Shown: one piece after another, positions 47,148 to 49,644 of the stretch
How positions within the stretch are numbered: position 1 is the stretch's first letter
Layout: the number at the start of each line of letters is the position of its first letter
Assembly: GCA_902812465.1 (NCBI GenBank)
Contig: CADDZE010000004.1
Span: 1 to 64,000, forward strand
Reading direction: 5' to 3'
Length of the DNA stretch: 64,000 bases
Origin: Acidobacteriota bacterium
GTDB taxonomy: Bacteria > Acidobacteriota > Terriglobia > UBA7540
Program-made: the position numbers and the translations under genes
The notes under the pieces: generated by a model
Told to the model about the DNA's origin: nothing
What the model saw: only the letters and a program-made list of their open reading frames with translations
Database searches by the model: none

Positions 47148-48035
47148 TTATCGCACCGGCAGCGCTGCCGACACCGGCGCGACGGCTTCTCTCCCCAGCT
47201 GCTCGCGGAGCGCAGCCGGCAAGTGGTACGACTCCGCGTCGCTAGGAAAACGCCCGGCTGCCACATCGCCCCGGAATCGTGCCAGCGCTTCCCGCGCGGC
47301 GGAGCCCAGGTCCGCATAACGGCGCACGAACTTGGCTGGAGGACGCAGCGTGAGGCCGAGGAGATCATGCAGCACGAGTACCTGGCCGTCGCAATCGGGG
47401 CCGGCCCCGATGCCGATTGTGGGGATGCGCAGCCGGCGGGTGATCATCGCCGCGAGCTCGCGCGGGATACCCTCCAGCACCAGAGCGAAAGCGCCCGCAT
47501 CCTCAATGGCTTGCGCGTCCGCCAGCAGCTCACTGGCAGACTCGAGTGTCTTCCCCTGCACGCGATAGCCACCCATGGCGTGCAGGGACTGCGGCGTGAG
47601 GCCAATGTGTCCAACGACGGGAATCTCCGCGTCCACTAGGCGGCGGATCTGCGCAAAGCGCTTCTTGCCGCCTTCCAACTTTACGGCTTCCGCGCCGGCC
47701 TTCATGTACTGGATGGCAACGCGAAGCGTGTCTTCTTCCGTCACGTGAAAGGCGCCGTAGGGAAGGTCGCCGATCAGCAGCGCCCGGCGGACGCCACGCC
47801 GCACTGCTCGCAGATGGTGCAGCATCTCTTCGGAAGTCACCGGCAAGGTGGATTCGTAGCCCAGTACCACCTCGGCCAGGGAGTCGCCGACCAGTACCAG
47901 GTCGATGCCAGCTTCATCCACGAGCCAGCCGGTGGGACAGTCGTAGGCGGTCAGGCAGGTGATCTTCTCCCCGCGCAGCTTGCGCTCGAGGATGAGAGGA
48001 ACTGTGACTTTGCTCACGGCCTCTTTCGGGTCCAT
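47148..48035 (-). CDS. panB: 3-methyl-2-oxobutanoate hydroxymethyltransferase
   Basis: 295 residues from ATG 48035, which has GGAGG five bases upstream; a longer frame to 48050 is less likely. Adds a hydroxymethyl group from methylene-tetrahydrofolate to ketoisovalerate, the first step to pantoate. Motifs: KITCLTAYDCPTGWLVDEAG, VLVGDSLAEVVLGYESTLPV (metal-binding Asp), GAEAVKLEGGKK, VVGHIGLTPQSLHAMGGYRV, LVLEGIPRELAAMITRRLRI and TIGIGAGPDCDGQVLVLHDL. Operon with panC. Its 5' leader carries the candidate structured RNA at 48145-48237. Confidence 0.96.
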   Translation of the reverse strand: MDPKEAVSKVTVPLILERKLRGEKITCLTAYDCPTGWLVDEAGIDLVLVGDSLAEVVLGYESTLPVTSEEMLHHLRAVRRGVRRALLIGDLPYGAFHVTEEDTLRVAIQYMKAGAEAVKLEGGKKRFAQIRRLVDAEIPVVGHIGLTPQSLHAMGGYRVQGKTLESASELLADAQAIEDAGAFALVLEGIPRELAAMITRRLRIPTIGIGAGPDCDGQVLVLHDLLGLTLRPPAKFVRRYADLGSAAREALARFRGDVAAGRFPSDAESYHLPAALREQLGREAVAPVSAALPVR

Positions 48036-48144
48036 GGCAGCCTCCTGCATACGCTAGCGAGTGGACAGGAGACGAGCACTCCGATGCGGTTTCCCCGCAC
48101 GATGGCAGAGCCTCTTTCCTTCGTCGCCCGCCGATGCAATGAAA

Positions 48145-48237
48145 AACCCTCTCTGCCATAGGATCCGTGAGTCAGCGCTCGCGATACACTGATCAGGAGG
48201 CCCGAGAGGGCCTTCGCTCGCCTGGACAGAGAGGGTT
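48145..48237 (-). ncRNA. Candidate structured leader RNA upstream of panB
   Basis: An 11-bp perfect inverted repeat, AACCCTCTCTG at 48145-48155 (plus strand) and CAGAGAGGGTT at 48227-48237, encloses 71 bases. Inside is a perfect 6-bp hairpin with a 4-base loop (48198-48213, AGGCCC-gaga-GGGCCT) and a weaker TCAG/CTGA stem. Read on the minus strand, the 3' arm runs straight into TTTTT, so the closing stem looks like part of a Rho-independent terminator 105 bases ahead of the panB start. This is the layout of a riboswitch or attenuator, or of a small RNA. I could not match it to a known class, including the published pan motif. Confidence 0.45.
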
Positions 48238-48257
48238 AACTTGCCGGGCGCCCCGCC

Positions 48258-48277
48258 GCCGGCATCTCGATGCCGGC
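48258..48277 (-). terminator. Hairpin downstream of the deoxynucleoside kinase gene
   Basis: GCCGGCAT-ctcg-ATGCCGGC (plus strand) is a perfect 8-bp stem with a 4-base loop, 35 bases beyond the kinase stop at 48313. There is no T-run, so it would be an imperfect or Rho-assisted terminator. Confidence 0.5.
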
Positions 48278-48312
48278 AAACTGACCAAGCGTCCCGTTGA
48301 TCCCTGACCGTC

Positions 48313-48978
48313 TCAGTCCGCTGCCGCGGATCCAAGCGGCAAAAAATACTGCGTTCCTCGGACCGGCTGGCTCAGGCGCCGCAGCAGCTCCTGCAGGTCC
48401 TCGTTCCGGTGGATGAAATCCATCTCGGACGTGTCTACCACCAGCAGGTCCGAAGCATTATAGCGAAAGAAGAAGTGCTCGTACGCCCGCACCACTTCCT
48501 CCAAATACTCCCCGGAAATCTTGTGTTCCGCCGGCACGTTCTTGCGGGCGATGCGGGCCTTCAAGGTTTCCGGTTTCGCCTGTAAGTATACCACCAAGTC
48601 GGGAATCGGGACCTGCCCGGCTAGCAAGCTGTAATACTCGTCATAGAGGCGCAGCTCCGCATCGTTTAGGTTGAGGCAGGCAAAGATCTTGTCCTTTTCG
48701 AAGAGGTAGTCGCTGATCACCACGCGGTCGGCAGTAGCGGCGAGGTCGAGTGCCCGCCACTGCTTATAGCGTTGCATTAGAAAGTAGAGCTGTGCCTGAA
48801 AGGCGGCTCCGGGCCGGTCGCGATAGAAGGCCTCGAGGAACGGGTTATCCTCGACGTCGCGCAGCCGCACCGCATGAAGCCTCTCCGCCAAGAGATCGGC
48901 CAGGCTCGTCTTACCGACGCGCAGCGGACCCTCGATGGCGATGAGGCGCGGCGGATTGAAGCGAGGCGCGAGAGCCAC
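48313..48978 (-). CDS. Deoxynucleoside kinase (dAK/dGK family)
   Basis: 221 residues from GTG 48978, chosen because GGAGG lies five bases upstream and the protein then has the family length; the open frame reaches 49122 but that leader is not conserved-looking. Phosphorylates deoxyadenosine, deoxyguanosine or deoxycytidine for nucleotide salvage. P-loop RLIAIEGPLRVGKTSLADLL, VEDNPFLEAFYRDRPGAAFQ (substrate Glu region), QLYFLMQRYKQW, VVISDYLFEKDKIFACLNLN (the DR/DY motif region) and the LID-like KARIARKNVPAEHKISGEYL. Lies between folK and panB on the same strand. Confidence 0.92.
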   Translation of the reverse strand: MALAPRFNPPRLIAIEGPLRVGKTSLADLLAERLHAVRLRDVEDNPFLEAFYRDRPGAAFQAQLYFLMQRYKQWRALDLAATADRVVISDYLFEKDKIFACLNLNDAELRLYDEYYSLLAGQVPIPDLVVYLQAKPETLKARIARKNVPAEHKISGEYLEEVVRAYEHFFFRYNASDLLVVDTSEMDFIHRNEDLQELLRRLSQPVRGTQYFLPLGSAAAD

Positions 48979-49155
48979 AGCTGCCTCCGAACAGCAGGCG
49001 ATGAAGTCTGAAGCCTTGCAGGACAAGTGTAAAGGAAAAAGTGGGGGGAAGTTGCCCGGCGAGGGCAGCCGTCCGGGTAAACGGTCGGAGCCGGAGAGGC
49101 CAAGGCGGGTGCCCCTGAGCAACGCGCCACGCGGGCCGAAGATCGGTGTTCGAGC

Positions 49156-49644
49156 TCACAGCGGTCGAAACTTGACCACCTGGCTGCGGTCTTCAGTTTG
49201 CTGCAGCATCTCGAGCACGGTCTGGCGAGTCACCGGATGCCGCACTTGGGGCGCCAGGTCGCGCAGCGGAACAAGCACGAAGCGACGCTCGCCCAAACGC
49301 GGATGGGGAATCGTCAGCGCCGACGACTGCAGAACTGCATCGGCATACAACAGGATGTCAATATCGATCGGACGCGGGCCGTTGCAAACCCCCGGACGGC
49401 GGCCCAGCTGGCGCTCAACCGCCTGGCACGTCCGCAGCAGGCGCAGCGGCATGAGGTCCGTCTCCCCTTCCGCGACGCAGTTGAGAAACCACGGCTGGCT
49501 GGCGAAACCAACGGGTTGCGTCTTGTAGAAACTGGAGACCCGGCGCAGCGGCACCCCTTCGCGAGTCAGCATTTCAAGCGCCTGCAGCAGGTGCCCGAGC
49601 CGATCACCCCTGTTGGAGCCGAGGGAGAGATATACCAACTTCAT
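49156..49644 (-). CDS. folK: 2-amino-4-hydroxy-6-hydroxymethyldihydropteridine diphosphokinase
   Basis: 162 residues, family length. Transfers pyrophosphate from ATP to the pterin in folate synthesis. MKLVYLSLGSNRGDRLGHLL at the N-terminus, VSSFYKTQPVGFASQPWFLN (Trp/Phe pterin pocket), VERQLGRRPGVCNGPRPIDI and the metal-binding DIDILLY, closing with HPRLGERRFVLVPLRDLAPQ. It heads a run folK, deoxynucleoside kinase, panB, panC on the minus strand; folate is the one-carbon donor for PanB, so the grouping makes metabolic sense. Its start is only 15 bases from the stop of the EEP-family gene upstream. Confidence 0.95.
   Translation of the reverse strand: MKLVYLSLGSNRGDRLGHLLQALEMLTREGVPLRRVSSFYKTQPVGFASQPWFLNCVAEGETDLMPLRLLRTCQAVERQLGRRPGVCNGPRPIDIDILLYADAVLQSSALTIPHPRLGERRFVLVPLRDLAPQVRHPVTRQTVLEMLQQTEDRSQVVKFRPL

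Follow-up and report, generated by a model that had tools for sequence, protein, structure and literature searches.

What does the long stem just ahead of the pantothenate genes panB and panC do in this genome of the Acidobacteriota? We analysed it in a 64,000-nt stretch of contig CADDZE010000004.1, hereafter the window. The genes run in one direction on the minus strand, in the order folK (49156..49644, PF01288, taken from the ORF list and lying upstream in the same gene run), dnk (deoxynucleoside kinase family, PF01712, 48313..49122 as the listed ORF), a gap, panB (ketopantoate hydroxymethyltransferase, PF02548, 47148..48035) and panC (pantoate-beta-alanine ligase, PF02569, 46113..47126 as the listed ORF). 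The panB ORF is open from 48050, and its start is likely the ATG at 48035, judging from the AGGAGG in front of it; the true start of panC is probably later than the listed ORF suggests. The gap from the end of dnk to the first panB-aligned codon measures 262 nt. The stem sits inside it, 110 nt from the ATG at 48035 and 95 nt from the in-frame upstream ATG at 48050, which agrees with the roughly 105 bases given in the original prediction.

The geometry can be read directly and is as had been claimed. On the minus strand, a perfect 11-bp stem of AACCCTCTCTG (48237-48227) with CAGAGAGGGTT (48155-48145) encloses exactly 71 nt (48226-48156), including an inner hairpin, and is followed by five T, two of them paired. 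Counting one G-U and one further C-G pair, the stem, termed P1, extends to 13 bp. Its 5' arm (region 3, AACCCUCUCUGUC) lies at 48225..48237 and its 3' arm (region 4, GGCAGAGAGGGUU) at 48145..48157, both assigned on the minus strand, the latter by direct reading and covariation. The U-run UUUUUC, the putative terminator end, was read at 48141..48146 of the same strand. Folding places two hairpins in the loop, also on the minus strand: P2 (AGGCCC-UCUC-GGGCCU, 48198..48213) and the variable P3 (48165..48197, borders approximate). The segment 48140-48242 folds with -47.0 kcal/mol (z -3.79), and 0/200 dinucleotide shuffles folded as well. A G+C-rich stem that leads directly into a U-run has the makings of an intrinsic terminator, and we take the element to be a probable one. 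The loop of 67-71 nt with P2 and P3 is far from the short loop (~3-8 nt) of such terminators, and the standard terminator scan does not report the element. A separate observation concerns ATGGCAGAG, which overlaps the P1 3' arm and to which a 9-nt segment 40 nt downstream is perfectly complementary (48102-48110 vs 48151-48159, minus strand). This complement is possibly a further competitor of the terminator in the window genome; inspection of relatives' leaders by eye revealed no such pair.

Is the element kept in related genomes? A DNA comparison with 60 relatives revealed an alignable block before panB in eight other genomes. One more DNA match, L011 in G045 (E 8e-4), lay in a 3-kb locus without panB, panC, dnk or folK and was discarded. 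In the window's family (Terriglobia), 33 of 39 genomes had a panB match; 30 loci were fetched and their dnk-panB gaps read. The gaps yielded 21 candidate elements, of which four looked poor by eye (L042, L044, L050, L056). We built a covariance model, R1, from 11 of the 21 (alignment A1), leaving out the four poor candidates and holding out six others (L038, L041, L043, L046, L047, L057). R1 matched the window's element, P1 to U-run, with 80.1 bits (48137..48240, minus strand). It found the element at the pan locus in 19/39 genomes and 13/18 genera of the family, one copy per genome. Eighteen of these elements stand before panB and one before panC: in G035 (L153 1501-1596), dnk, a pan-type hairpin (see below) and the P1 element lie directly before panC, and no panB was found there. 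Eight elements unused in the model (L038, L041, L042, L043, L046, L047, L057 and L153) were recovered at E <= 2e-5, a limit chosen to exclude mirror matches and at which L044 (E 0.044) dropped out too. The mirror matches are minus-strand R1 matches produced by the near-palindromic P1. Two others, G026:C100 (E 0.036) and G006:C179 (E 0.096), lay off the pan locus and were attributed to chance. From a draw of 297 Acidobacteriota genomes, which includes the window's own genome as the sole R1 match, the 296 others gave no element under stricter filters that may lose weak matches.

The P1 stem recurs in relatives with compensatory changes, and for this reason we place it beyond chance. In the 19-sequence alignment, which was fitted to R1 and therefore leans towards the model, 86.1% of cells are paired and 21 of 32 pairs show both-side changes somewhere; 0/500 shuffles attain the whole-structure score, and sliding the partners destroys the signal. 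Both sides changed in 7/17 pairs of P1/P1b and in 5/6 pairs of P2; the 9 pairs of P3 have 70-82% of their cells paired. The unfitted 11-sequence alignment gave the same picture for cells paired (0/500 shuffles), cells with both-side changes (1/500) and covariation score (1/500). The number of covarying pairs was a weaker indicator (matched by 30/500 shuffles), and further pair types were not significant (221/500). The U-run, scored as at least 5 T in 9 nt, is kept in 16/17 relatives against a background of 7.5% of windows; the 17 do not include L042 and L044, in which a U-run is visible by eye, or L050 and L056, which have no P1. Conservation and covariation in the panB leaders of relatives, set beforehand as the test of the original prediction, were thus both found, and its structured leader with a terminator-like closing stem stands. 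By comparison of related sequences, the P1 element is a conserved, covarying RNA. Over 13 pairs and 19 sequences, non-majority letters number 18 in the P1 5' arm vs 38 in the 3' arm; the 5' arm may therefore be under a constraint beyond pairing in the stem.

We wondered whether the element belongs to a known RNA class. No Rfam family matched it at gathering or relaxed thresholds, and a relaxed scan of 17 relatives gave only sub-threshold miRNA and CyVA-1 matches, taken as chance or repeats. Spurious miRNA-family matches came from large imperfect palindromes near dnk and panB (L053 416-495 and L055 1381-1506), which are probably genomic repeats. The pan motif, RF01749, is described in the 2010 report as a cis-regulatory stem with two conserved bulged A's upstream of panB or panC (PMC2864571). 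P1 is a continuous 13-bp helix without two bulged A's and thus not a pan RNA. The pan motif that had been mentioned as a possible match for the predicted structure does not apply to the P1 element itself, but a pan-type hairpin, missed at the time, lies ~70 nt upstream of it (48306..48341, minus strand).

This hairpin, which a model built from the window-type pan hairpin (R2) matches with 55.1 bits, is formed by region 1 (CCGCUUGGAUCC, 48339-48328) and region 2 (GGACUGAGACGGUC, 48319-48306), with bulged A's at 48331 and 48311. It is located in the 3' end of dnk and contains the dnk stop codon UGA (48315-48313). Its sequence, CCGCUUGG[A]UCC-GCNNNNGC-GGACUGAG[A]CGG, encodes the last residues of dnk, LPLGSAxxAD, and the stop codon. 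It shares with the pan motif the two bulged A's, the position 5' of panB and the core GGAUC...GGACCGGGAC. It differs in being single and below the Rfam threshold, in its place at the end of dnk, whose stop codon falls within the stem, and, in the window's family, in the structured-loop terminator that follows. RF01749 reaches 21 bits in the window at 48380-48304, across the dnk end (gathering threshold 36.2 bits). It exceeds the threshold in 0/39 family genomes and in 1/250 genomes of the class (G373, 39.3 bits). Of 28 family genomes in which RF01749 matched at all (E up to 10), 25 have a match at the hairpin site, always sub-threshold. A tandem arrangement was sought and not found: the window leader holds one R2 match, and the Rfam alignment of a first hairpin is weak. 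The 2010 report describes pan RNAs as mostly, not always, tandem, and its authors considered a dimeric protein (PMC2864571); the single hairpin at our locus weakens the argument from tandem copies to such a protein.

The pan hairpin was present in 29/30 panB leaders of the family, the loci having been chosen by panB, and ~10 family members keep it and have no P1 element, which counts against the attenuator proposed below. The one panB leader without it, L049 (G014), also holds the single P1 element, among 17, that lacks a U-run (GGGTCACGGG). To align the hairpins we used 34 of 38 (alignment A2; L044, L047, L171 and L189 left out). Both bulged A's occur in 34/34 rows, 97.9% of cells are paired, and 6/13 pairs changed on both sides, a covariation that 0/500 shuffles reach. 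A covarying stem with invariant bulged A's argues for a constraint on the RNA and not on the coding sequence. The codons argue likewise: a bulged A is the third base of an overlapping Gly/Arg codon, and this wobble base is A in 28/29 family members with a recognised dnk end, the exception being the hairpin-less L049, vs 3/16 panB loci outside the hairpin-bearing group. The same conclusion follows from two unusual loci. In L056 dnk was not detected and the hairpin is retained; L044 carries an insertion that forms a stem of its own and displaces the 3' strand to a position past the stop codon, and this strand, too, is retained.

Across the phylum, R2 matches 46/396 Acidobacteriota genomes. All 29 fetched R2 loci besides the window's lie 5' of panB, 22 of them with dnk upstream; for L212, L216, L217 and L227, which contig ends truncate, the placement comes from the leader test. 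Terminator-like structures stand between hairpin and panB in 26/62 leaders from 7 families; the reverse complement gave 5, and 2.2 were expected from shuffles. L122 and L209 are excluded from the leader tests because of their short length. The window's family accounts for 18 of the 26: 17 are P1, and L058 has another terminator. The loop is ~65 nt for P1 in most family members and 4-12 nt in other families.

Taken together, these results suggest a transcription attenuator for panB and panC in which the pan hairpin senses and the P1 element terminates, the reading that we consider probable. Comparison among relatives establishes both RNA structures with their position and conservation, the U-run and the order hairpin-terminator-panB; a working terminator, pairing between regions 2 and 3 as the switch, an effector that binds this hairpin and the direction of regulation are what we infer from them. 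Regions 1 and 2 would form the single pan-type hairpin over the dnk stop codon, and regions 3 and 4 with the U-run an intrinsic terminator, with two further hairpins inside its loop. With the pan hairpin closed, perhaps held by a protein or metabolite, region 3 would be available for pairing with region 4, and transcription would stop before panB. With the hairpin open, region 2 would pair with region 3, the terminator would be delayed and panBC transcribed.

Can region 2 pair with region 3? Region 2 GGACUGAGACGGUC and the consensus region 3 GACCCUCUCUGUCC form 12 of 14 pairs, with two mismatches, at -17.0 kcal/mol. Among 20,000 14-mers drawn at random from the window, 0.055% gave as good a fit; for dinucleotide shuffles the figure was 1.1%. 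The 2:3 complementarity has p < 0.05 in 9/18 family leaders, although these leaders are related and their p-values not independent, and region 2 hardly varies among them. When prefixes of the leaders were folded before region 4, mean 2:3 pairing was at least 0.4 in 7/17 leaders and 0.26-0.33 in 3, so that 1:2 and 2:3 compete in 10/17; it was almost absent in 7/17. Leaders L044, L046 and L047 pair weakly. Once region 4 is present, 3:4 prevails in most leaders, and the equilibrium ensemble of the complete leader consists mainly of the terminator together with a closed pan hairpin. That leaders in general carry, downstream, a complement to the pan 3' strand was not supported (7/62 leaders with p < 0.05; family medians combined p = 0.14), nor was complementarity of terminator arms to that strand outside the family (combined p = 0.64). 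We judge the evidence for 2:3 pairing as a switch, in this family only, to be suggestive and its chance to fall a little short of even.

The predicted arrangement recalls two known kinds of leader. In trp-type attenuators the leader has four regions, and the pairings 1:2, 2:3 and 3:4 are mutually exclusive. The leader described here is similar in that region 4 resembles region 2 and both can pair with region 3. It differs in that there is no leader peptide, the upstream stem is a pan hairpin at the 3' end of a kinase gene, two mismatches interrupt 2:3 and the switching is hypothetical. Riboswitches use terminators as expression platforms, and here too a sensor stem lies upstream and a terminator just before the regulated gene. 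Unlike in a riboswitch, the pan sensor may bind a protein, as the authors of the 2010 report suggested (PMC2864571).

The P1 element may instead be a plain intrinsic terminator of ruvB-folK-dnk, with panBC read from a promoter of their own downstream, an ornamental loop and a pan hairpin that is separate or idle. The strong stem and U-run, the long terminator-panB stretch in many relatives and the dominance of the terminator fold in the full-length leader would all suit this. However, we found no sigma-70-like promoter in 48000-49200 with a scan that covers this promoter type, the conservation of the inner sequence and of P2 goes well beyond the needs of a terminator, and the 5' arm is the less variable one. 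The leader that lacks the U-run, L049, also lacks the pan hairpin, a coincidence seen once (n=1). We consider a plain terminator unlikely. The element could also derive from the 3' UTR of dnk as a small RNA, or be a site of processing or protein binding, unrelated to panBC attenuation. It does lie directly behind dnk, and a long stem could be an RNase III substrate, but its conserved U-run suits termination and in L153, where panB is absent, it stands before panC, which indicates that the element tracks the pantothenate genes. Any of these roles appears very improbable.

The original prediction had left open a new riboswitch or an attenuator. If P1-P2-P3 were a new aptamer with the closing stem as terminator, the pan hairpin would be a separate control. 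P2 covaries and the loop sequence CAGGCRAGYGGAGGCCC is conserved in most members; moreover, other families use ordinary short-loop terminators after the pan hairpin, which makes the long structured loop an addition. Yet the loop has diverged or been lost in L038, L041, L042 and L043, which keep P1; a pseudoknot that would pair the junction with the P2 loop, promising on 11 sequences, was unsupported on 19; and no Rfam relative turned up. An aptamer of this kind seems distinctly improbable, and P1 as the terminator part of a pan-RNA attenuator is the more economical explanation, within which the conserved P1 inner loop could act as an independent sensor. A more elaborate attenuator, in which the ribosome finishing dnk would open the one-hairpin pan RNA and couple nucleotide-kinase translation to B5 synthesis, with the terminator loop as second sensor, we regard as rather unlikely.

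Pan RNA has counted as a candidate regulator since 2010. We found no report of its effector in open-licence papers, nor, with queries that did not name the phylum, of pan RNA in Acidobacteriota. The attenuator that we favour would offer a natural reporter at this locus, where a single pan hairpin is followed by a clear terminator; with relatives that have lost one or another of these parts (hairpin, kinase gene, panB, terminator), effector and mechanism become testable. The hairpin also illustrates how a cis-regulatory element can be hidden in a coding 3' end, below the Rfam threshold, phylum-wide.

Two observations concern leaders at the panB start itself. In family f85, 5/5 loci (L218, L221, L225, L226 and L228) carry GGUCC/GGCCC...GGGACCG-AUG at the panB start, that is, GGAUCCGUCGGUCC(G)GGAGGGACCG-AUG or close to it. 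The first part of this stretch is also complementary to the pan 3' strand, and the stretch is possibly a translational version, a hairpin that would sequester the ribosome site. Four f8 genomes (L197-L200) have GGAGCGUAUC in common around the panB ribosome binding site, their leaders being otherwise different.
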